Source: a virus. From it: 21,679 nucleotides of DNA. Position 1 is the stretch's first letter; each line of letters opens with the position of its first letter. The notes under the pieces were generated by a model, which was not told where the DNA came from, ran no database searches, and worked only from the letters and a program-made list of their open reading frames with translations. Shown here piece by piece: positions 10,452 to 21,679 of this stretch. The DNA lies in the IMG/VR virus record IMGVR_UViG_3300017969_000174, positions 1 to 21,679 of that record. One strand, 5' to 3'. The translations under genes and the position numbers were made by a program.

Positions 10452-13400
10452 TTAATAATTGTTCTCACTGCTATTCGCAGAGGATGAAACTTGTATATTA
10501 CCAATACTATCGACTGCTGTTACAACATTACCAGTTGCTTTAAGATTGGTTGCTGTAATTTGATCAATAATATCAATGTTGTCAACGGTAGCGGTGCTAA
10601 TGAAAACTTCATCTGCTTTACTTGTTATCTGATACATTGATCCAAAACTTTGTGTGCTTGATCTAGGAACAATAACAAAGTTAGCAACATCAGGTGCTGT
10701 TTCTTGTTGGATATAAGTTGCTAGTTCAGTAAAATAAAAACTATCTCCAAAGTCCCAATTTTCAATATTAAAGAAATCATTTATCGCTGTAATAACTTTA
10801 CTTTTAATTTCGTTATCACTAATTGTTGAGTTATCATTTTTAACAATTTTAAATGTTGCTTGTAATGAAGTATCTGCATCAGCGCCAAACAAAGGTCTGT
10901 AATTTACAGAATGATATATAATTTCATCTGATAAACTTTTTACAGGATCAAGCACCGGTGCTAATTCCTGTTTAAGACTTTGTGATGTTGGTGCTACCGG
11001 CAATGTTCCTACGCCGTTAACGTATGCTCTAAATTCATCGTCATAGTTTTTAGATAAAACATACATATCAATAATATTTGTCTTACTAGGATCGATACGT
11101 CTGTCATTTTGTGCATTATGAATATATTGGAATTTAATATTATCTCTTCCAGGTCTAGCAAAATAACTAGTATCTAAATCTAATGTACCAGTTGTTGAAT
11201 TGTAAACCTTAATAACATCCTCTAAATCATTATAAAAATAAAATAGTTGACCATTTGTATAAGGATCTAAATCTGTAACATTTGCTTCTCTATCAAAAAT
11301 AACAAAATTATTAGAATCAATTTTTTCTGTTACTTGGTAACCTTCAACGGTTGTTGTTCTAAAAAATACAAAGTTAGTTAGATAACCTCTACTATCTTCT
11401 GTATCAGGTTTTACAATATTAATAAATGAATCTGGATCGTCGATCATTCCGTCATCATCACCGTCATAAAAATTAATACGAACCCTATTTGTTTCTTCGA
11501 ATCCGTCTGTATTTCTAATACTACCTACAATTTCCCACTGATAATCTTTTTGTAGTATGCTATCTAAAACAGGGTCTTCGTTGACTTTAAGGACCTTAAT
11601 TTGATCTTTAATAACCAATCCTGTTTCACTATCAAACTTTTTAATTCCTAGGTCAACAAAAAATTGAATTAAATTTTCACTTTCAAATCTATAATCTAAT
11701 CCTCTATATGTTACGGAATAAGTTTCTCCATCTGTTTCAAATAATACAAACCAACTCTTATCTGCTTTAGCACCTGTTGTATCACCTTGACGCTCTAAAC
11801 TAAAATCATCTTTGGTATTTAGGTTTGCATTAACAATAATTTTCCAAGTTTGTGTTTCTTGATCGTAACGAATACCAAATGTTTTATAATTAAACACAAG
11901 ATCAACAAGTTGTGTTTCTAATTCAACAGGAAGATTAGTAACAATTGGTGGTACTAATTCCTGTGGTACCGCCAGTGAAGGTATATTTTCGCTTAATACA
12001 ATCGGTCCTGTTCCATCATCTAAGTTACCTCGACCGCTATTAGAACCATCGCCGCTGACTTGAACCACTTTTGTCCAAATGTAATCTGTTGTTTTTTTAG
12101 TTTTTGTATCTGTTAGTGTTCCGTCTGGCAAAAAGTATTTTCCTTCTGGCGGAGTAAACTTAATCATTGTATCGGGTTTAATATACTGGAAATTATTACT
12201 AGTAAAACTACCTACCGTAATAGGCGCACCATTAATATTATTACGAAAATAACCCGTGCTACCATTTGAAATTGTAGTTGCTAAGGTCCAGTCGATATTA
12301 ATATCACCTGTAAGTACTCTCGGAAACTTATCTAAATAAAATGCTTTTGTTGGTAAACTTTCAACAACCGGTTCAACTCTATTTCTAATAATTCCTAAAA
12401 TATCATTTCTTGTTTGCCAAGTAAAAGTAAAATCATTTTCAAAATAGTTTTTATATAAAATACCATCATCGGCAATTAAGTTTGTTGACGAATATTTTCC
12501 TGTTGGATCTGTAATTTCAAATTGTCTTGAAATTCCTGAACTAATTCTGTTTACTGCTTTTACTTTAATAACATTATTACTTGCTGACAACGGATAAGCG
12601 TTATAGTCTTCTCCTGTTATCATTCTATTTTGTGTATAGAATGCCTGTGGAGCGTTAGTTCTAATATCTTCTGTTGATTCAGAACGTGTTGCATTAGTAA
12701 CGGTTGTTTGTAAACCTAGTTGTATTGTTAATGTATTTCCTTGTCCTGACTTACTAAAGTATGGAATTGTTAAAACAATATTCTGTAGGTCATTAGGTCT
12801 AATAGTATAACTTAAACCGTTTGATGATCTAAAGTATGTTCTAAAATTTCCTTTTGGTAAATCACCAAAGGTTCCGTCAGCAAAATTTAAACTAATCTGA
12901 TCATCGTTTCTTGTATTAACACTATAAAGTGTTCTTGTGTTTTTATTAATACTATTGTAAATTACATTACTTCCGTAAACTGAATTTAAACTGGTCCATT
13001 CAGTTGTTAAATTATTATCCCTATCACGTTCCCATAACCATACATCTGTTTGATTTATGTTAGGAGAATCGATATTAATGATTTCATTTGGACTTGGGTC
13101 TGTAATAGTAAAGTTACTATTTTGCATTTCCCCTTGTACAAATCTTAGAAAGAATCCTGTATTAGGAGAACTATTTCCTCGTTTATCATTTTTGTAGACC
13201 ATTGACAATGTTGATCCTGGAAGTGGCGATTGTTCTAAAAGGGCATTGTCTTTTATGTAAGAACTTGTAATTTCAAAATTCATGTTTCTTCCAGCAACGG
13301 TTTTACTAAATTCATATAAAGGAACATCTATATTTTGTGTGTTTAACCTATAAATGTCTGTTGTAATACCGTCAATAACTCCAGACTGATTTGGCTTACC

Positions 13401-13910
13401 AAACACGGTAGTACCGTTCATGGCACTATTCATTATTACGGTGAATTGCTCTAGCCAATTAGTATTTGTGTCATCGTTCCATGAAATAATTCTATTGCCA
13501 ATATTATTTCCTAAACTATCTTGAACATTCTCAGTTGTTTGTATTCCTATAATTTTTAACAATCCTGAAGCAGATGTATTACGTTTAGGATTGTATCCTA
13601 CTAATCTTGCAAGTCGTAAAACTGAACTGCGTTTTTCGGCTAATTCAATAAAATTTTCTCTAGCATTTAAATCAAATCTGTATGATAAACTTTGACCCAA
13701 GAATGCAATTAAATCAATAAGTGCCAAATACTCAGTTGATTCAATATAATCGTTAAAATCTTCTGGATAATTCTTACGCAGATAGTTAATCATGGTTCTA
13801 CGCAAGGTAGGAAAGTCATATGAAGCAAAATCTGCATCAGCAAATGCACGATAAATTTTACTCCAATCTTGGTTCGCTATTAGCGAATTTTGTCTATTTT
13901 TACTGGCCAT
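10452..13910 (-). CDS. gp6: Baseplate wedge protein gp6 (enlarged)
   Basis: Gp6 forms the wedge dimers that hold the T4 baseplate ring together. The product is 1,152 residues, against about 660 in T4. The N-terminal part (about residues 20-110) has the family pattern: YRAFADADFASYDFPTLRR, then STEYLALIDLIAFLGQSLSY and NARENFIELAEKRSSVLRLA. The core (about 335-445) has LNFADGTFGDLPKG and ITGEDYNAYPL, both typical of gp6. The large C-terminal extension contains an EF-hand-like loop (816-827). The gene lies 42 nt after gp25 and 14 nt before the giant gene. There is no Shine-Dalgarno sequence. A promoter-like box ends 5 nt before the ATG, so translation may start on a nearly leaderless message. 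The identity is confident; the start is slightly less so. Confidence 0.93.
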   Translation of the reverse strand: MASKNRQNSLIANQDWSKIYRAFADADFASYDFPTLRRTMINYLRKNYPEDFNDYIESTEYLALIDLIAFLGQSLSYRFDLNARENFIELAEKRSSVLRLARLVGYNPKRNTSASGLLKIIGIQTTENVQDSLGNNIGNRIISWNDDTNTNWLEQFTVIMNSAMNGTTVFGKPNQSGVIDGITTDIYRLNTQNIDVPLYEFSKTVAGRNMNFEITSSYIKDNALLEQSPLPGSTLSMVYKNDKRGNSSPNTGFFLRFVQGEMQNSNFTITDPSPNEIINIDSPNINQTDVWLWERDRDNNLTTEWTSLNSVYGSNVIYNSINKNTRTLYSVNTRNDDQISLNFADGTFGDLPKGNFRTYFRSSNGLSYTIRPNDLQNIVLTIPYFSKSGQGNTLTIQLGLQTTVTNATRSESTEDIRTNAPQAFYTQNRMITGEDYNAYPLSASNNVIKVKAVNRISSGISRQFEITDPTGKYSSTNLIADDGILYKNYFENDFTFTWQTRNDILGIIRNRVEPVVESLPTKAFYLDKFPRVLTGDINIDWTLATTISNGSTGYFRNNINGAPITVGSFTSNNFQYIKPDTMIKFTPPEGKYFLPDGTLTDTKTKKTTDYIWTKVVQVSGDGSNSGRGNLDDGTGPIVLSENIPSLAVPQELVPPIVTNLPVELETQLVDLVFNYKTFGIRYDQETQTWKIIVNANLNTKDDFSLERQGDTTGAKADKSWFVLFETDGETYSVTYRGLDYRFESENLIQFFVDLGIKKFDSETGLVIKDQIKVLKVNEDPVLDSILQKDYQWEIVGSIRNTDGFEETNRVRINFYDGDDDGMIDDPDSFINIVKPDTEDSRGYLTNFVFFRTTTVEGYQVTEKIDSNNFVIFDREANVTDLDPYTNGQLFYFYNDLEDVIKVYNSTTGTLDLDTSYFARPGRDNIKFQYIHNAQNDRRIDPSKTNIIDMYVLSKNYDDEFRAYVNGVGTLPVAPTSQSLKQELAPVLDPVKSLSDEIIYHSVNYRPLFGADADTSLQATFKIVKNDNSTISDNEIKSKVITAINDFFNIENWDFGDSFYFTELATYIQQETAPDVANFVIVPRSSTQSFGSMYQITSKADEVFISTATVDNIDIIDQITATNLKATGNVVTAVDSIGNIQVSSSANSSENNY
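11430..11465 (-). other. EF-hand-like calcium-binding loop in gp6
   Basis: Residues 816-827 read DGDDDGMIDDPD. Acidic residues fall at loop positions 1, 3, 5, 9 and 12, with Gly at 6 and Ile at 8, which is the canonical EF-hand/dockerin loop pattern. It sits in the C-terminal extension that T4 gp6 lacks. Calcium binding is inference. Confidence 0.6.
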
Positions 13911-13913
13911 AAC

Positions 13914-13941
13914 ATTATTTATTTGATTGATTAACTGCGTA
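13914..13941 (-). promoter_or_regulatory. Late-promoter-like element before gp6
   Basis: On the minus strand this carries TACGCAGTTAAT, then AATAAATAAT. The AATAAATA box (13923-13916) is one base from the T4 late promoter TATAAATA. It matches the element at 21048-21075 at 25 of 28 positions with identical spacing. The box ends 5 nt before the gp6 ATG, so a start site at the usual distance would give almost no leader. Promoter function is inferred. Confidence 0.6.
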
Positions 13942-13952
13942 TATTATTTCTG

Positions 13953-14384
13953 TTAGAAGTTTGCGTTAGAGCGATCAAAGTTAAGTCGCAATGCTTCGCT
14001 AACGTTATATTCAACAAATGATAACACACAGGAAACCTGAATCCCATAATCCTTTTCTACTACTTCCATCGCATCTATACGTATGCGAGGATCACCGTCT
14101 ACAATAGCGATAATATCGCTAACAATTTGTTGTCGAACGTTTTCTGTAAATGGTTCAAACAACAAACCCCATATAATTGTACCAACATTTGGTTGGTAAA
14201 TTTTTTCACCTTTTTTAATGTGAAAATGATTAACTAGATCTTGCTTGATTAGTTCTATATCATACAACTTATGATTCCTATTACCCGAAATAGTGCTCAT
14301 TCCTCTATATATTTGAGAAGTTCGACCAGTGTTACCTTTGTTGGTTTTATTAGGTTTAATTGTGATGTCGTTATATCTAGCCAT
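13953..14384 (-). CDS. gp25: Baseplate wedge protein gp25
   Basis: Gp25 is a small wedge protein at the point where the sheath meets the baseplate and is the relative of T6SS TssE. The product is 143 residues (T4: 132). The recognisable core is VNHFHIKKGEKIYQPNVGT, then IIWGLLFEPFTE, and GDPRIRIDA, where DPR (98-100) stands at the family's EPR motif. The N-terminal 30 or so residues are basic and polar. It starts 11 nt after the gp5 stop and precedes gp6 by 42 nt. The ribosome site is poor: GAGAGG lies about 16 nt upstream, farther than usual, so translation may depend on coupling to gp5. Identity is confident. Confidence 0.92.
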   Translation of the reverse strand: MARYNDITIKPNKTNKGNTGRTSQIYRGMSTISGNRNHKLYDIELIKQDLVNHFHIKKGEKIYQPNVGTIIWGLLFEPFTENVRQQIVSDIIAIVDGDPRIRIDAMEVVEKDYGIQVSCVLSFVEYNVSEALRLNFDRSNANF

Positions 14385-14395
14385 ACTACTATTTA

Positions 14396-16258
14396 CTATA
14401 CCTCTCTATCCGTTTCTTCTTTAGAACTTGTTAGTTTAGTTTGATCTTCATGGAAATCATAAGGTTCATGTGTTGGAATTCTTTTAATCATTGATGTAAA
14501 TGTTCCAGCATTGTAATAATTATATTTTTCCCAACCTGCTTTTGTACTTTTTTCATTGTGAGTATGTACACCAAAGTGTTTAACAAATCTACTTGTTGGC
14601 GGAGCCGCATCATTTGAAACGATCGCTGTAAACGCACCCGGGCCAGGTAAGTTTAAATGTACTGCATCTGGTCCGTCAATAAAAACCGTTTTATCTGTTT
14701 CTACATTGATATTTGCTCCGAGTGTTTCAATGTTGATATCATCTAATGTTGTTGAAATATTAATCTTTCCGTTATCACATAAAAGTTTATTTTGTGGACC
14801 TTGAAATTCTGCCCAGTATTCTGTGTTATCAGGAGTGGTAACTTCAAGCGTATCCGGAACTTGTGTTCTTTTAAGTGCTTGATAAAATTTCAATTCATTA
14901 TTTTCATTTAGATAAGTTACGGTATAATCTTTTGAGTATATTTCATTCGGATCAAATGTTTCTGTAATTGTAGGAGCAGAGTTTGCTTTTATGTTTATGC
15001 TTGTTCCTGCTGTTTGTCTAATACCTAATTGTGTGTGCAAATCAAAATTACCACTTGTAATTGTTGTATCAATTCTATTAGCAATACTGATGTTATTGGT
15101 ATTAACATTTAAATCATTTGTGTCTATTCTTTGATTTAATGTTTTAATATCACTATTACCTTTTACTTCAAGTCTATGAGATCCATTGACTAATTGTCTT
15201 AAATGATTAGACTCTGTTTTTATAATATTTTTTGATCTTATATTAATGTTACGTTTTGCTTCCAGATTAAAATCTCTATCAGCGTAAAAATTAAAATCAC
15301 CCCTAGTACGCATACTGATACTATCTTCGCAGAAAACATCCATCTTACCGTCACTGGTTAACTCTATCCAAGCGGTACCTTTTGAATTTCCAATGTAAAT
15401 TAAATCATTACTATCATGTAATAAAATTTGATGTCCGGCTTGTGTTCTTAATCTAACTAAATTATTAGTTCCGTCAATTGCTCCGTCATCCATTGTAAAT
15501 GAATGTCCACCCGGTTGTGTTACTTTCATTTTAACTGAATTAGCAATAGGTCCAACTAACTTTTCATCGCCGGTAAATCTTCCAGGAGTTTTAACACCAA
15601 AAATTTGATTTACTGCATCACGTCTTTGTGAACTGGATGTTAGTCCTCTAACATTATCAACTAAAAGTCCTTGTCTTCTTAAAGTAAAAGCCATAGGATG
15701 AACAGGATGTCTTACTTTATCTGGTGTTGTTTGTCCGATGTTTGCAGACTTAACAACATTTTCAACAGGCAATCCATCTTCGCCGTTTGCAAAATATTTT
15801 GCTGTATCATTATCCATCGCAACTTTAGTTGATGCCGCAGGTTCAGGAATACTATGATTTAGTGTTTGTTCTTGAAATGCTCCTAGCCAGATTCCCTGTT
15901 TAATACTTTTGTTTAGAAACATTACTAAACCTTTTGTTCCTATTTGAGGAGCAGGAAAAATCATTCCATGTGCTTGTTGAGAGTCTTGAAATTTTTGTGG
16001 ATCCTGTCCAGCATTAATAAAGTCTTTAACACTATAATAAGGATACAACATTCTTACAGATATTCTGTTTTCAACTAATTCTCTAGTATCATCCTCATTA
16101 CCTTGTAATGTAACCTGCAAACTTCCATGCTTTGTATAATCAGCATTACTTTCTACAACCGCTATGTATGGTCCTAATCCAATTTCTTGTGATAACTTTT
16201 CCGCTCTTTCTGGATTTAACGGAGCACTTGTTTTTTGTCTTTTATCATATATTGGCAT
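14396..16258 (-). CDS. gp5: Baseplate hub spike protein gp5-like, without lysozyme domain
   Basis: This is the central spike that pierces the outer membrane. An N-terminal OB-fold-like segment (about 29-130) has GPYIAVVESNADYTKHGSLQ and ends near GIWLGAFQEQ. A gp5/VgrG-type stretch follows (about 250-345): GGHSFTMDDGAIDGTNN, LRTQAGHQILLHD, GTAWIELTSDGK, then short repeats (FNFYADRDFNLEA, KRNINIR) that suggest a triple beta-helix. The C-terminus has HTHNE and RIPTHEPYDFHED, a tail I associate with marine T4-like gp5. No T4-lysozyme-type domain lies between OB fold and helix, unlike T4 gp5 (575 residues). A W/Y-rich insert (441-484) resembles a carbohydrate-binding module. TAGGAG 6 nt upstream fixes the start; the hub gene ends 14 nt before it. 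Confidence 0.9.
   Translation of the reverse strand: MPIYDKRQKTSAPLNPERAEKLSQEIGLGPYIAVVESNADYTKHGSLQVTLQGNEDDTRELVENRISVRMLYPYYSVKDFINAGQDPQKFQDSQQAHGMIFPAPQIGTKGLVMFLNKSIKQGIWLGAFQEQTLNHSIPEPAASTKVAMDNDTAKYFANGEDGLPVENVVKSANIGQTTPDKVRHPVHPMAFTLRRQGLLVDNVRGLTSSSQRRDAVNQIFGVKTPGRFTGDEKLVGPIANSVKMKVTQPGGHSFTMDDGAIDGTNNLVRLRTQAGHQILLHDSNDLIYIGNSKGTAWIELTSDGKMDVFCEDSISMRTRGDFNFYADRDFNLEAKRNINIRSKNIIKTESNHLRQLVNGSHRLEVKGNSDIKTLNQRIDTNDLNVNTNNISIANRIDTTITSGNFDLHTQLGIRQTAGTSINIKANSAPTITETFDPNEIYSKDYTVTYLNENNELKFYQALKRTQVPDTLEVTTPDNTEYWAEFQGPQNKLLCDNGKINISTTLDDINIETLGANINVETDKTVFIDGPDAVHLNLPGPGAFTAIVSNDAAPPTSRFVKHFGVHTHNEKSTKAGWEKYNYYNAGTFTSMIKRIPTHEPYDFHEDQTKLTSSKEETDREV
14807..14938 (-). other. 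Aromatic CBM-like insert in gp5
   Basis: Residues 441-484 read YSKDYTVTYL, then LKFYQALKRTQVPDT, then NTEYWAEF, and interrupt the predicted spike helix. The Y..V.Y...K.YQA...P....YW order resembles the CBM-like stretches of the giant protein. Function is inference. Confidence 0.35.
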
Positions 16259-16264
16259 TATACA

Positions 16265-16270
16265 CTCCTA
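16265..16270 (-). promoter_or_regulatory. Ribosome binding site of gp5
   Basis: TAGGAG lies 6 nt before the gp5 ATG at 16258, in the gap after the hub stop codon. It is the strongest Shine-Dalgarno match in the window together with that of the hub gene. Confidence 0.8.
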
Positions 16271-16272
16271 AA

Positions 16273-19200
16273 TTAATCATCATCAACAATGTTTCCGGAT
16301 TCGTCAAGAATTACAACGTTGCCATCTTCGTCTTCAAAAAGACCGTCCGCATTTCTTTTAAGGAAAGGTGGAGCAGATACATCTGGTATGTCTGGTACGC
16401 CTGGGAAGTTAACACCTATGTCACTACCTGTCGGTAAACCTTGTCCTAGGTCAACCCCTAGTCGGTCGCCTGTTAATGCTGGGTTTTGGAACCCTCCGCT
16501 TCCGACTGATACTCTCGAACTAAGGTTAACACCTATATCACTACCTGTCAGCGTTTGTACTGGAGTTTGTATTCCACCTGGACCCGATTCTATTGCTGAT
16601 TGTACAGCAGAAGGAACAAAATTGTTTAAAGCATTGCTGTTTCCTGAAGCAACTGCTCCAGCAATATCTTTTGCTTCTGCAAAAGATGTCATTAATGCTC
16701 CACCAAATGCATTAGGACTAAACCCTATTGCGGAAGGAGCAATTTCTACTGCGGAAACTTCACTTAACCCGTCGACTCCGTTAGGATTAAATTTTAGAAA
16801 CGCTTCTAATTCTTCTTTTGAATTAATTTTAACTTGAGGTGCTTTATCTAACTTGGCTGTTTGATCTTCCGGTGCTGGTCCTTGTTTTTTATCTTCAAGA
16901 TCTTCAGTTTTAGAAACAACAATTGGTCTTGGGACGGTGTAATCTTCTGTTTGATTTGGTCTTCTAGCCGCTGTCAGTGTTTGAGAAAAAACACCCTGAG
17001 AAAAATTACTTTCGATTGTTAGTAACTTATATAATCCGCTGTAAACACTTTGATTTAATTTCATTGTGGATGGGAACCGCTCACCAGTTCTAAGTTCGTC
17101 GGCTGATGGATAATCGTATGCTGATGAGAAATTAAAAATAATATCAACTTCGCGACTAAAACTATTCATTTCACCATTGTTAGTTTCTAGTTCATCAGCA
17201 CGTATGATCGGTCTGTTACCTATTCCACTACCGACAAGAAAAACAGGATCTCCTACTATTCCAATATCTGCTTTTAATAATGCTTTCTCTCCTGGATTAT
17301 TAAACAACACTTCGTTTAACAATCTTGCTGTTTGATTAGCATTATTAGGTGTTGATGTGTTTGCTGTTGTTGTGTCTTTTTCTTGTACCGGTTGTGTTTT
17401 TTTATTTCCTACCCTGTTATTAAATGCTTCCGTAATGATTTCGCTAGGTGATTTATATATCTTTTTCTCTGTAACTTCAGATGTTGATGCTTCTGGGTCA
17501 TTTTTAGGTCTATATTGTCCAGCGGCAAAAAACAGATTATTAAAATCTAAATTAAATTCCATTACATCAATGTTTTTTCCTGTAAAGATATAATTGTATT
17601 CTCTTACAGCGAATTCTTTTGCTTGTTCATAGTTCATTCCTTCAGTTGGTCCTGGTATTTGACTATAATGAACATAATATGGTTGAATACAATAATGAAT
17701 TTCATACACTTCTCTATTGTAATATGTGTCATACCCATAAGGAATAGCATACTTTTCAATTTTGTACCACTTAATAAAACCTGTTTTTACAAAGACGTCT
17801 GTTTCCTCGTCTAACACTTTCGCATAACTGCTATCAGTTATTAAAGTATGAATATTTTGTTCTAGTGTTGTTCCTTTTTTAAACTGCCAATTTTCTCTAT
17901 CTTCACCGTATGCTTTAAAAGTTTTTTCAAAAATACCTTCTTTATTGTCGTCTAATGTTTTACCTTGATCATTTAAATTTTTTAATTCACGTTTTAGATT
18001 TTCAATAATTTTTAATTGCTTATAATATTTTGCTCTTAATTCATTAAGTGTTTCTCCAACTTTTTGTGCTCCTCCATCTAGTTCAACTTCATCGGTAGCA
18101 ATATCACCTTCAGGATCCGCATCATCAATTTCAACCCTATTCCAGTTATCAAAATCAAATGTAGATTTTGCTTGTCCTTCTGTTTTTTCAAACACAAGTC
18201 CTTCATTACCCTTATCCGTATCGTCAAAAAATTGTTTTAGTTGTGCATCGGATGGTTTATAATATGTTTGAATTTCAAAAATTAAATCTTTTCTTAGGGA
18301 TTCTGCTTCACTAATAGCAGTTCTCATATCTGCGGCTTTGTCGCTTATTTCTTTTACTTTTTGATCTATTTGTGTATTTGATTGCTTAACTTCTTCATCT
18401 AAACGTTTTACTGCATAAAATCCTGAAAATGTTTTTTCTTTTTTCTGCATGGGTGATGAAGCAAACTTGTTTGTAATTGCAACTGGACCTCCCGGGGAGA
18501 ACACTTGTTCAAAGTCCTTTTGCTCTCCATCTGATAGTGCTACCGCGGCATTGTTTTTCCATACATCTGCATTGAAATTTTTAAAGTTTAAAGCCGCACC
18601 TGCTGTTTCAACACTTCCTGTATCAACAGGAGCAAATTCTGTAGTTGCTCCGCCGGGTTTGCTGTAATTGGCAGGAAACCATACAGCATATTTGTGAGGT
18701 AAAAACGGAGCAACTTTTAATTCTGATGCTTTGCTTATTGATTTAAATCTTTTTGAACTTTTGTTTTTAGCAACAATTTCATTAACTTGCTTTTCAGATC
18801 CTGCTTTTGATTTTTTCTCTGCCATTTGTTGTTCTTCAATCTTATTGAATCTTTCAAATAAGTGATAAACAACACTTCCAACGGTTGGATTGTTTTGTTT
18901 TGGAGAATCTACATTAGACGATAATGTGGATACAACCGAAGTCTGGGCGGCTGAATTTAAACTGGTAAATTTCACATCATACACAGCACCCGCTTCTGTG
19001 ACCTTCATAGAACTTGAATTGATTATTATTGGAAAGTATCTTCTTGTTCCAGGAATCGATTCTGTTTGTAGTGTTGGGGTTTTTTCGTTAGGCATAAATC
19101 TATGTCCAACAAAATCTAATGCTAAAAGAAAAGGTGCTCCTAGATAATCTTGATATCCAGCAAATCTTGAGGCATTGTATAATTCTTCATAAAAGCCTCC

Positions 19201-19851
19201 CACGCTGTAAGGTTCTGTTACCTTAAATGTTCCTGTTGTTATATTACCACCGCCAACACTTGAAAGACCTACAGCACCCTTAAAACTAACATCATCGATA
19301 AACAAGTCTCTTGATTTTGCCGATCCACCGATTTTAAAGGCGCCTGATCCACCTTTATTAAGTTGTTCTTGTGTAATGGCCTCTATTTCTTCGGTATCTG
19401 CTCCTTGTTCTTGGGCTTCTTTTATCGCAGAGTTAAATGCATTACTATTGCCTTGTGATCTTTTGTACCCCCCACTTCTTAACACAATGTAAAACTCAGA
19501 TGTTTCTGCTCCTTCTACACCAGTTTTAAACAAACTATCAAACTTACTGGGTAATTCATCATCCTTAATTTGCTCTGGAGTTATGCTGGCCAGTGTGAAA
19601 AGATAATTGTAGGAATTATAATCATGTAATCTATTATATCCTCTCTTGGTTTGTGGTCGTAGTGATGAAACAAGATGGCTGGGTACATTTTCCGTATCAA
19701 CATTTGAAGTTATTGGAAAGTCCTGCGATATGTCTTCTGGATTAGGAATTGGAATTTCTATATCTGCCTTAACATCCCCTTTGAATCCATCAGGTACTTG
19801 GTTGCTTCCGAATGCAGTTCGTGTAACCCTTTTAGCCTCAACGCTATCCAT
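16273..19851 (-). CDS. Large baseplate hub protein (gp27-position structural protein)
   Basis: The 1,192-residue product sits immediately before gp5, and its parts match the large hub/structural proteins of marine T4-like phages as I remember them: FIDDVSFKGAVGL and VTEPYSVGGFYEELYNASR (about 183-250), YNYIFTGKNIDVMEFNLDF (about 750), and GIVGDPVFLVGSGIGNRP then YSGLYKLLTIESNFSQGVF (about 860-960). T4 gp27 is only about 390 residues. The middle (about 474-640) is rich in heptad-like charged helices, probably a coiled coil. The C-terminus has three TGSDIGVN-type repeats and ends in an acidic DEDGNVV...DDD tail. By position and partial similarity it should anchor the gp5 spike; direct homology to gp27 is not shown. 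TAGGAG upstream, 1-nt gap from gp53. Confidence 0.8.
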   Translation of the reverse strand: MDSVEAKRVTRTAFGSNQVPDGFKGDVKADIEIPIPNPEDISQDFPITSNVDTENVPSHLVSSLRPQTKRGYNRLHDYNSYNYLFTLASITPEQIKDDELPSKFDSLFKTGVEGAETSEFYIVLRSGGYKRSQGNSNAFNSAIKEAQEQGADTEEIEAITQEQLNKGGSGAFKIGGSAKSRDLFIDDVSFKGAVGLSSVGGGNITTGTFKVTEPYSVGGFYEELYNASRFAGYQDYLGAPFLLALDFVGHRFMPNEKTPTLQTESIPGTRRYFPIIINSSSMKVTEAGAVYDVKFTSLNSAAQTSVVSTLSSNVDSPKQNNPTVGSVVYHLFERFNKIEEQQMAEKKSKAGSEKQVNEIVAKNKSSKRFKSISKASELKVAPFLPHKYAVWFPANYSKPGGATTEFAPVDTGSVETAGAALNFKNFNADVWKNNAAVALSDGEQKDFEQVFSPGGPVAITNKFASSPMQKKEKTFSGFYAVKRLDEEVKQSNTQIDQKVKEISDKAADMRTAISEAESLRKDLIFEIQTYYKPSDAQLKQFFDDTDKGNEGLVFEKTEGQAKSTFDFDNWNRVEIDDADPEGDIATDEVELDGGAQKVGETLNELRAKYYKQLKIIENLKRELKNLNDQGKTLDDNKEGIFEKTFKAYGEDRENWQFKKGTTLEQNIHTLITDSSYAKVLDEETDVFVKTGFIKWYKIEKYAIPYGYDTYYNREVYEIHYCIQPYYVHYSQIPGPTEGMNYEQAKEFAVREYNYIFTGKNIDVMEFNLDFNNLFFAAGQYRPKNDPEASTSEVTEKKIYKSPSEIITEAFNNRVGNKKTQPVQEKDTTTANTSTPNNANQTARLLNEVLFNNPGEKALLKADIGIVGDPVFLVGSGIGNRPIIRADELETNNGEMNSFSREVDIIFNFSSAYDYPSADELRTGERFPSTMKLNQSVYSGLYKLLTIESNFSQGVFSQTLTAARRPNQTEDYTVPRPIVVSKTEDLEDKKQGPAPEDQTAKLDKAPQVKINSKEELEAFLKFNPNGVDGLSEVSAVEIAPSAIGFSPNAFGGALMTSFAEAKDIAGAVASGNSNALNNFVPSAVQSAIESGPGGIQTPVQTLTGSDIGVNLSSRVSVGSGGFQNPALTGDRLGVDLGQGLPTGSDIGVNFPGVPDIPDVSAPPFLKRNADGLFEDEDGNVVILDESGNIVDDD
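16406..16550 (-). repeat. Three imperfect C-terminal repeats in the hub protein
   Basis: Copies at about 16550-16522, 16474-16448 and 16432-16406 encode LTGSDIGVNL, LTGDRLGVDL and PTGSDIGVNF. The first and third are nearly identical also at DNA level. They lie in a Gly/Pro-rich linker before the acidic tail. Role unknown. Confidence 0.75.
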
Positions 19852-19852
19852 G

Positions 19853-20146
19853 CTATACTCCTACAACACGTTTAATGATATCTATCGTTGGTACCTTTAT
19901 TTCGACTCCTGCTACAAAATCAAAAATAGGATCTTCCAGCACTTCGGGGTTTCTGCTTTTGAATACCCACCATAGATTAGGATCTTGATATAAATCGCTG
20001 GCGAATAAATCGGGTCTATAATTGTATTGAGGTTTAATTACATACAGCACGTCGGATCTAACAGGTGGAATTGATCTATAGTTTAGTATGCCCAAACCGT
20101 TTTGATCAATAAATGTATTTCCATACAAACTAGATTTACTATACAT
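19853..20146 (-). CDS. gp53: Baseplate wedge protein gp53
   Basis: Gp53 is the wedge component that, in T4, bridges neighbouring wedges and so closes the baseplate around the hub. The product is 97 residues, against about 196 in T4; the short form fits marine T4-like relatives. The diagnostic block is YRPDLFASDLYQDPNLWWVF, then RNPEVLEDPIFDF and AGVEIKVP (about 43-86), which is the conserved gp53 core. The N-terminus (YSKSSLYGNTFID) precedes a Tyr/Arg-rich strand. It begins 1 nt after the gp48 stop and ends 1 nt before the hub gene. AAAGGA in the last gp48 codons serves as the ribosome site. Identity is confident. Confidence 0.9.
   Translation of the reverse strand: MYSKSSLYGNTFIDQNGLGILNYRSIPPVRSDVLYVIKPQYNYRPDLFASDLYQDPNLWWVFKSRNPEVLEDPIFDFVAGVEIKVPTIDIIKRVVGV
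19858..19863 (-). promoter_or_regulatory. Ribosome binding site of the hub gene, inside gp53
   Basis: TAGGAG lies within the last codons of gp53, 6 nt before the hub ATG at 19851. The stop TAG of gp53 and the ATG are separated by a single base, so the two genes are probably translationally coupled. Confidence 0.75.
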
Positions 20147-20147
20147 T

Positions 20148-21023
20148 TTATAACATTCCTTTTTGTTTTGTCATTTCGCCTGTTGCAAATTTCTCTAAAT
20201 TAAATGACGCTTGATCTGTTCTTGCAAATGCTGGTAAACATTCAACCGTAATATCTGTTCTTGTAGGAATCGATGTTTTAGAACCTCCCGAGGATGGTAA
20301 ATCAATATAGTCAACATCATCATTCATTGTAAAAAAGAAACTTGATATTACCACTGGCATATTATTAAACATATAATCACCATATCCATCTAATAATACT
20401 ACCGGAGGAGGAGCGCCTAAGTGTGCTCCACTTCCGAAGTGCATTTTAGTTATTGTTCTAAGTGCGTGTACCGTTGCTAAAACGAATTCCGCTTCACCTC
20501 TATTCTGTGCTGTAAAAGTTCCCACAATTGATATAGCATCCAAATTGGAGTTCTGGTATGACTGAAATGCATAATTACTATGTGTTGGTTGGACTGCATT
20601 ATAATTCGCTCTTGATTGTAAAACTATTTGTGGTGTGTATGGAAATACAATACAATTGGCATTTGACTTTCGAAGGGGTTTAAGAACGTCCCCCGCTAGA
20701 TAATCTTCGGAGATTTTGATCTTGATTCTTTTATCTATTTTTGCTAATGTTGGAAGTTGGCTTTCTTGTAAGTATGGCAAGCCACCTGCTTTAATGTCAA
20801 ACCCCAATCTATCTAGTACACCACTTAACCCGGTAATTTCACCTAGTTTAGAAAGACCCTCCATGGCTCCGGCATTTTGTGTTATACCTGTTGCTTCACC
20901 GATGTTTGATAAAAACCTAGTTCCGGCGGCCCCGGCGTCTTGTGCAAACCCTGCTCCTAGTTCTCTACCCTTATTGATAGAACTAGTTCCAAATGATGAT
21001 ATACTTTCTAAAAATCCAGCCAT
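20148..21023 (-). CDS. gp48: Baseplate tail-tube cap protein, gp48-like
   Basis: In T4, gp48 and gp54 sit on the central hub and start tube polymerisation. This 291-residue product has a Gly/Ala-rich N-terminal region (1-85) of low complexity, then a conserved domain: CIVFPYTPQIVL (124-135), THSNYAFQSYQNSN, a hydrophobic EAEFVLATVHALRTITKMHF, GAPPPVVLLDGYG, FNNMPVVISSFFF and RTDITVECLPAFARTD. This matches what is called gp48 in marine T4-like phages; T4 gp48 is about 364 residues. It is first in the operon, and a late-promoter-like element lies 26 nt upstream of its ATG. AAAAGGAA gives the ribosome site. The tube-like fold is shared by gp48 and gp54, so gp54 is the alternative. Confidence 0.8.
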   Translation of the reverse strand: MAGFLESISSFGTSSINKGRELGAGFAQDAGAAGTRFLSNIGEATGITQNAGAMEGLSKLGEITGLSGVLDRLGFDIKAGGLPYLQESQLPTLAKIDKRIKIKISEDYLAGDVLKPLRKSNANCIVFPYTPQIVLQSRANYNAVQPTHSNYAFQSYQNSNLDAISIVGTFTAQNRGEAEFVLATVHALRTITKMHFGSGAHLGAPPPVVLLDGYGDYMFNNMPVVISSFFFTMNDDVDYIDLPSSGGSKTSIPTRTDITVECLPAFARTDQASFNLEKFATGEMTKQKGML

Positions 21024-21047
21024 GTCGTTTTGGTTCCTTTTCTTACA

Positions 21048-21075
21048 ATTATTTATTGCATTTATTAACTGCGTA
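21048..21075 (-). promoter_or_regulatory. Late-promoter-like element before the gp48 operon
   Basis: On the minus strand it carries TACGCAGTTAAT, then AATAAATAAT. The AATAAATA box (21057-21050) is one base from the T4 late promoter TATAAATA and leaves room for a leader with the AAAAGGAA ribosome site before the gp48 ATG at 21023. The same upstream box occurs at the same offset before gp6. Confidence 0.65.
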
Positions 21076-21084
21076 GTTTATAAT
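21056..21084 (+). promoter_or_regulatory. Sigma70-like promoter of the rightward gene
   Basis: A perfect TATAAT (21079-21084) stands 17 bp after a weak -35 candidate TTGCAT (21056-21061, three of six). A start near 21091 would give a 20-nt leader with CGGAGA (21097-21102) 8 nt before the ATG. This looks like a promoter used by unmodified host polymerase. Confidence 0.55.
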
Positions 21085-21110: not shown

Positions 21111-21679
21111 ATGATTAGACAGAAATACTTAACAAACAAAGACCTATTACACGAGATTTGGAAAAGCAAGAATACGTTTTCTTCGTTTCAGGATGAAAAG
21201 TATGCACAATACGACATTATTCTTGCAAGTTTAGAAAAAGTTAATAGACTTTCAATAGCACAGGCTAAACGTAATCAAGCAGAACGCATTGGTAAAGAAG
21301 CCTATGCAGAAGCAAAAGAAAACAAACAAAAGGTAAAACTAGCAGAAGTTACACCTGATTGGAAAAAAATTGAAAAAACAGACTTGGTTTTTAGGATTAT
21401 GACATTTGATCATGTTCCAGAAGAGCCTGGTCGCAAACGCAAAACAAAGACGGTAGCAGATAAACATGCAAAATGCAACTTTCCACCATTTCAACATTGG
21501 AAGTATGATGAAAATGACAACCTAATTTGTGTTGGCAAAAGTCACTGGCAAGGCGGAGTACATAACGGCCATTTTTCTGTGAGTCATGGTAGAATGACCG
21601 AAGATTTAGGACGCATGTTCCTAAAACTTGCTGATCGTTATGGTACACGAAGCAACTGGCGTGGTTATACCTACAATGA
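21111..21679 (+). CDS. Unidentified phage protein, possibly gp55-like (3' end beyond the window)
   Basis: The frame runs from ATG at 21111 to the window edge, 189 codons plus two bases, with no stop. The N-terminus is MIRQKYLTNKDLLHEI, then a charged helical stretch (about 40-80) that could form a coiled coil, then DLVFRIMTFDHVP. A His/Trp-rich part follows (CNFPPFQHW, GKSHWQGGVHNGHF, SHGRMTEDLG). The last readable stretch, LADRYGTRSNWRGYTYN, resembles the start of sigma region 2 in T4 gp55 (LSKRFNFSGYT). I recall the same protein type, usually unnamed, in cyanophage genomes. A late sigma role is a suggestion only; it is divergent from the structural operon and has its own sigma70-like promoter. 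The cut at the edge hides the helices that would decide it. Confidence 0.75.
   Translation, partial: MIRQKYLTNKDLLHEIWKSKNTFSSFQDEKYAQYDIILASLEKVNRLSIAQAKRNQAERIGKEAYAEAKENKQKVKLAEVTPDWKKIEKTDLVFRIMTFDHVPEEPGRKRKTKTVADKHAKCNFPPFQHWKYDENDNLICVGKSHWQGGVHNGHFSVSHGRMTEDLGRMFLKLADRYGTRSNWRGYTYN

Follow-up and report, generated by a model that had tools for sequence, protein, structure and literature searches.

The late promoters of phage T4 are the classic example of promoters recognized through nothing but a -10 box and activated by the replication clamp. They use the sigma factor gp55 together with gp33 and gp45. Their consensus is TATAAATA (as quoted in PMC5259590), and according to PMC2988020 they have neither conservation at the -35 position nor an upstream element. 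In the corresponding part of PMC5259590, the late promoters of the jumbo phages CBB and GAP32 consist of ATAAATA alone, with only A/T downstream of it in CBB. A phage activator site at about -30, at a fixed distance to the -10 box, is found in T4 middle promoters; this MotA box is short, asymmetric and monomer-bound, and works with sigma70 and AsiA (PMC2988021, in part). Here we describe a different arrangement in a fragment (21,679 bases) from an uncultured virus (IMG/VR record IMGVR_UViG_3300017969_000174; this whole stretch is called the window) and in its clade of at least about 600 stretches. An inverted repeat of about 20 bp, the dyad, stands at a fixed distance upstream of the late -10 box of several baseplate and tail genes, and also lies inside the promoter of the late sigma factor gene, gp55.

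The initial annotation had reported two minus-strand elements (13914-13941 and 21048-21075) that match at 25 of 28 positions and share an upstream box at a fixed 14-nucleotide (nt) offset from the late box. A recount confirmed the match, and the offset is exact: TACGCAGTTAAT (13930-13941 and 21064-21075) and AATAAATA (13916-13923 and 21050-21057) are separated by a 6-nt gap in both. Two things had been overlooked. Conservation goes on upstream of TACGCAG, the entire element being an inverted repeat, AATWAACTRC|GYAGTTWATT, of which the extra box is one half; and the gene across the 21-kb copy is gp55 itself. The elements and the genes that they head are as follows.

13928-13949, minus-strand reading AAATAATATACGCAGTTAATCA: dyad element of the gp6-like wedge promoter, with TACGCAGTTAAT in its 3' half; 21.5 bits with the gp6-derived matrix described below, second best in the window.
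13916-13923, minus strand: late -10 box AATAAATA of the gp6-like gene.
10452-13910, minus strand: baseplate wedge gene of 1152 amino acids (aa), ATG at 13910 (phrog_10646, E value 2.5e-299), which we take to be gp6 in the T4 nomenclature.
21062-21083, no strand assigned: dyad element in the spacer between gp55 and the baseplate-type structural gene; 25.0 bits, best in the window.
21050-21057, minus strand: late -10 box AATAAATA of the structural gene 20148-21023.
20148-21023, minus strand: structural gene phrog_12050 (E 5.1e-47), which opens a block extending to a gp25-like gene.

Apart from the two dyads nothing in the window scores above 9.0 bits. Exact TACGCAGTTAAT is confined to the two elements, as is AATAAATA on both strands, where 5.6 occurrences are expected. 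When up to three mismatches are allowed the composite is found twice, compared with an average of 0.00 in shuffled sequences (n = 100). The exact composite is present in 68 stretches of viral_contigs, in all of which a long-frame ATG follows 5-35 nt downstream of the late box; these loci are a selected set and the counts are not frequencies.

We next defined the element from promoters that had not been chosen for the box. From the best 80 gp6-like loci we used 77, three being dropped because the match did not start at residue 1; removal of 6 duplicates left 71 distinct upstream regions, or 72 with that of the window. An expectation-maximization fit with a palindromic seed yielded a 22-nt motif with a consensus of about AATWAACTRCGCASTTWATT. 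It scores above 6 bits in 70 of the 72 promoters and above 12 bits in 65; in 68 of those 70, TAAATA begins 28 or 29 nt from the first base of the dyad. A seedless refit anchored on TAAATA (70 sequences) recovered the same motif, which correlates with its own reverse complement at 0.85 at a single axis and at no more than 0.29 at others. Hence the motif has the two-fold symmetry expected of a dimer operator. Between dyad and box, most positions carry 0.02-0.34 bits (0.84 two bases before TAAATA), and it is therefore the length of the spacer, not its sequence, that is conserved.

A scoring matrix built from 61 gp6 sites was applied to a held-out set, the unselected upstream regions of phrog_12050 (80 loci, 47 after the removal of 9 short loci and of duplicates). 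The score exceeded 12 bits in 34 of the 47 promoters, each with TAAATA at 28 or 29, and the remaining 13 have a weaker form of 6-10 bits at the same position. Random windows from the phrog_12050 loci, among which gp6 sites may be present, exceeded 12 bits in 8 of 213 cases. A scan of 16 large contigs, 1.06 Mb in all, returned 49 strand hits at or above 17 bits, and an equal-length Markov control gave none; at 12-14 bits observed and control numbers were the same. A chance origin is rejected by the shuffles, by the Markov control and by the held-out promoter family.

The general late promoter of these phages is ATAAATA before a frame, and an 8-bp TATAAATA-like box stands ahead of late genes as in T4-type late promoters. 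Among 192 such promoters in 12 large records (ATAAATA only, so that dyad promoters with GTAAATA or CTAAATA were left out), 18 carry a dyad above 12 bits at offset 28 or 29. None of the others scores 8-12 bits and two score 0-8; at a control offset no promoter scores above 0. The late promoters thus fall in two clear classes, with and without the dyad, and the idea that the dyad is a general late-promoter part is rejected. Absence of the box from other late gene starts, which the initial annotation had named as telling against its reading, holds for about 90% of late promoters and leaves the dyad as the mark of a subclass. The expectation of copies before late operons only comes close to what we found; the dyad also lies in the presumably early gp55 promoter.

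Dyad-bearing promoters chiefly precede baseplate and tail genes: gp6, phrog_12050, the baseplate hub gene phrog_150 (opposite a tape-measure-like gene), a tail-tube gene and a hydroxylase-like gene (opposite a radical-SAM gene). Dyad and spacing are thus common to several non-homologous genes, and the 28/29 offset is kept before gp6, phrog_12050 and the tail-tube gene and in some of the hub promoters. All loci together gave 224 distinct sites above 15 bits, including 117 at gp6 (115 with the 28/29 offset) and 64 at phrog_12050 (all 64), numbers that are not frequencies since the loci were fetched around these two genes. The radical-SAM and Asp/Arg-hydroxylase-like genes are divergent across the dyad (L083:14110-16339, L117, L125 and L120), and their late-box offsets are 29 or 25 depending on direction.

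In 63 sites, the gene opposite phrog_12050 across the dyad is gp55. A sigma70-type gp55 promoter, TTGACA and TATAAT separated by 16 to 18 nt, was found with at least 9 of 12 matches in a fixed register at 58 of 61 testable sites. In this register the -35 begins 6 or 7 nt before the dyad and the spacer is 17 or 18 nt long, that is, (-6,17) or (-7,18). Nine of the 61 promoters are perfect and 25 have 11 of 12 matches. On the antisense strand of 19 gp6 dyads, used as a control, one site has 11 matches, four have 9 and the others 7-8 (5/19 with 9 or more). The -35 and -10 of the gp55 promoter flank the dyad, which reaches as far as the -10; the -35 is overlapped or directly adjoined by the opposite-strand late box. 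The corresponding features of the window are:

21056-21061, plus strand: -35-like TTGCAT of the gp55 promoter (consensus of relatives TTGACA), overlapping the opposite-strand late box.
21079-21084, plus strand: -10 TATAAT of the gp55 promoter, 17 nt past TTGCAT and shared in part with the outer end of the dyad.
21111-21677, plus strand: late sigma factor gp55 homologue, truncated by the window end (phrog_12791, E 1.6e-47).

Lambda PR and PRM are overlapping divergent promoters that act as a switch, and the gp55 spacer resembles them in having back-to-back promoters with a common operator. The same likeness extends to pLS20 (see PMC4207663). Unlike in both of these systems, the sigma70-type promoter of the clade makes the sigma factor that the other promoter uses.

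Compared with T4 late promoters, those of the clade are alike in having a TAAATA -10 box ahead of structural genes and a gp55 homologue. They differ in that a subclass has a 20-bp dyad at a fixed distance, while in T4, according to PMC2988020, neither an upstream element nor the -35 position is conserved; the initial annotation was right that T4 late promoters are not known to need an upstream element, and it is the dyad subclass only that departs from the T4 type in this respect. Likewise, the CBB, GAP32 and RaK2-like jumbo phages share the ATAAATA box and a gp55 of the long type, and the clade subclass adds the dyad. The MotA type, with a TGCTTA-type box at about -30 and a sigma70 -10, does not describe the dyad promoters: the sequence of the dyad is different and symmetric, and its partner is the late box TAAATA. 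We regard the dyad promoters as T4-type late promoters with an additional element. Among the open-access papers listed by searches on the sequence and on late promoters, none describes this element, as judged by title or the opening of the abstract.

Among cultured phages, a 35-nt model (R1), run with strict filters, had no match below E 0.04 in Phosso, PA5oct, Atu_ph07, SCTP-2, 2.275.O, RaK2 and T4; in S-PM2, P-SSM2, HTVC008M, Syn9 and phiM12 it had none below E 0.08. T4 and ten other named phages gave no convincing dyad match, and Phosso is ambiguous. A matrix scan of this Sinorhizobium phage found an 18.0-bit site before a gp25-like gene (L356:6194), with TAAATA at 27, and an 11.7-bit site in the hub/tape-measure spacer (L356:25837); these are the same kinds of place as in the uncultured clade, at sites where model R1 gave no match. 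The scan also returned a 16.4-bit site in Atu_ph07 and a 13.7-bit site in PA5oct, neither with TAAATA at 28 or 29. RaK2 and PA5oct resemble the clade in that gp55 is divergent from a structural gene, but differ in giving no model match below E 0.08.

The gp55 of the clade is about 283 aa long (predicted model with a predicted local distance difference test score of 87). The C-terminal half of the model resembles T4 gp55 (7d7c_F; root-mean-square deviation 1.3 over 89 columns, E 2.7e-3). Its N-terminal part of about 150 residues had no structural match, and no sigma region 4 was seen. In one 259-kb record (G018), gp55 is a 606-aa frame (L332:6386-8203) with an in-frame insert of about 320 residues between two conserved parts; the insert has no Pfam intein match at E 0.01.

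Families of the T4 co-activators gp33 and gp45 were each found in all five positive controls (T4, Syn9, S-PM2, P-SSM2 and HTVC008M) and in none of PA5oct, RaK2, Phosso and Atu_ph07. In 20 environmental records, all of them fragments in which divergent forms may go undetected, neither family reached E 0.001; a weak gp33 match was seen at 0.02. In part of PMC7824862, group 2 jumbo phages are said to possess gp33, whereas the families used here find none in the four phages named. Since T4 late promoters use gp33 and gp45, and these families were not found in the clade records examined, late activation in the clade probably differs from that of T4.

The likeliest reading is that the late sigma factor and the baseplate operons are under the joint control of a dimeric phage regulator. 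From the symmetry, position and spacing of the dyad we infer protein binding, the dimer state and the direction of control, namely activation at the late promoters and repression at gp55. The extra box would be one arm of a symmetric operator, and the protein that reads it, X, would be a dimeric DNA-binding protein, probably encoded by the phage. The operator would mark a subclass of gp55-dependent late promoters that head baseplate and tail operons. The operator axis is 17 or 18 bp ahead of TAAATA. With a start site about one turn past the box, as in T4, it would fall at about -28 to -30 (the centre at about -29 is borrowed from T4 geometry). X would then stand where other polymerases have sigma region 4 or gp33, and would assist gp55-RNA polymerase from there, which would require a fixed spacing; a site near -29 is also where gp33 and the clamp act in T4, and where MotA acts on middle promoters. 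Within the gp55 -35/-10 spacer, X on its operator would shut the sigma70-type promoter, as late polymerase on the overlapping late box would likewise do. The outcome would be a switch in one direction only, by which the phage stops making the late sigma and begins to use it. Taken as a whole, this combination of dimer operator, late activation at baseplate and tail operons and gp55 shut-off is the best explanation, and we give it an even chance of being correct. A more specific version is possible but doubtful: the regulator would replace gp33 and the gp45 clamp at baseplate operons, in a clade apparently without either, and turn off gp55 at the same operator, a lambda-like two-way switch from host sigma to phage late sigma that would set baseplate dosage apart from capsid dosage. 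The "second DNA-binding factor" proposed in the initial annotation is the better of its two options, and the dyad would fit a dimeric protein in that role. Its other option, a different late sigma, is not supported and we reject it, on the finding of the same -10 box at dyad and plain late promoters of the same records (18/192 with a dyad), and of a clade gp55 homologue that has a T4 gp55-like predicted fold and no sigma region 4 that we could see.

Several points weigh against this explanation. The matrix was trained on gp6 sites, which makes the gp6 counts circular, and 7 of the 72 promoters of gp6 stay under 12 bits. A second spacing, 25, at radical-SAM and a few other genes is unaccounted for by the model. 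No regulator was found among the genes examined, and two candidates for an autoregulated regulator were rejected: among the matches listed, the dyad precedes 2 of 12 homologues of an MPLKNG-type orphan gene (96 aa) and 2 of 10 homologues of an MDDRLK-type one. Finally, a site with its centre at about -29 lies over part of the promoter, and a repressor might use it just as well.

This last point leads to the alternative that survives best, although we consider it rather unlikely: the dyad would be a repressor operator. Bound there, X would keep the baseplate late promoters and gp55 silent until its release, or would cap late baseplate output. The site does overlap the core promoter on both sides, and at gp55 it lies within a -35/-10 spacer of the usual 17-18 bp. 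Repression, however, rarely needs spacing exact to one base, yet 28/29 holds across unrelated genes; such exact spacing favours contact with the polymerase.

Identity of X with a DsbA/GapR-like protein is less probable again. Two T4 late promoters have AT-rich sites to which DsbA binds. At least 577 viral stretches encode a DsbA-like protein, and of the 20 environmental records 10 do so (E 5e-8 to 1e-13); its genes stand, as judged by eye, behind early-type promoters. GapR relatives encircle AT-rich DNA and have no known dyad code, which speaks against the identity. Part of PMC7824862 relates DsbA to GapR, gives a ring model and, in favour of the identity, suggests possible recruitment of RNA polymerase to jumbo-phage late promoters. 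Against it, the predicted DsbA model consists of three helices without a significant PDB match, PA5oct has a homologue but no dyad, and before dsbA no dyad exceeds 12 bits in testable loci (best 11.2). DsbA is a candidate reader only.

We think it slightly less likely still that gp55 itself reads the dyad, as a dimer or with a partner, through the roughly 150-residue N-terminal part absent from T4 gp55. Only the C-terminal half matches the T4 fold (7d7c), the N-terminal part matching nothing, and the gp55 gene adjoins the element; but the RaK2 and PA5oct gp55 proteins align over 94-95% of the length and no convincing dyad is found there, and some nine-tenths of late promoters do without one. 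Lastly, a cis-acting RNA or DNA structure with no protein site, to which an inverted repeat might point, is highly improbable because the dyad is upstream of the late box, hence outside the promoter's own transcript, and its axis leaves no loop for a stable hairpin.

Returning to the dimeric regulator, we looked for candidates among genes conserved in 12 dyad-bearing records, by subtraction against PA5oct and RaK2. Pfam and PHROGs searches of 86 clusters (at least 60 aa, absent from RaK2; best 25 of 27 and of 61 families), many of which are probably antisense frames, gave no clear transcription factor other than the DsbA homologue, with a weak, below-cut-off Spo0A_C match. A SegE-like GIY-YIG gene (L323:3181-3624 and many other loci) is conserved in 11 of the 12 dyad-bearing records and was not found in PA5oct or RaK2. 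An MSRPKP-type gene was rejected as a dyad carrier, since a hairpin that covers the ribosome site accounts better for its matches. In this conserved 93-99-aa protein (L350, minus strand, and homologues), the late box is directly followed by a hairpin enclosing the ribosome-binding site. Ten of 11 leaders were folded, of which eight have a clear stem, one a weaker stem and one none; the stem varies on both sides between phages (ATATACGTG/CACGTATAT and TATGCGT/ACGCATA), which suggests that the gene is under translational control.

The gene content of the window is a T4-related baseplate block with an open 3,479-aa frame at its left end. One further gene adjoins an element:

13953-14384, minus strand: baseplate wedge gene, presumably the counterpart of T4 gp25 (phrog_261, E 3.2e-15), ending 3 nt from the dyad.

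The nearest relatives of the gp6-like wedge protein are in the jumbo phages Phosso, Atu_ph07, RaK2, SCTP-2 and GAP32, all below 60% identity. Gene order around gp55 is the same in PA5oct as in the window, and PA5oct gp55 is 48.5% identical to one clade gp55.

The element suggests a regulator not seen in the model phage T4. A clade of at least about 600 stretches has two classes of late promoter, one of them with a predicted operator that is common to unrelated baseplate genes and to the late sigma's own promoter. If the regulator is confirmed, it could explain late activation where gp33 and gp45 were not found, and such tailed phages would have a means of timing or dosing baseplate assembly separately from that of heads.

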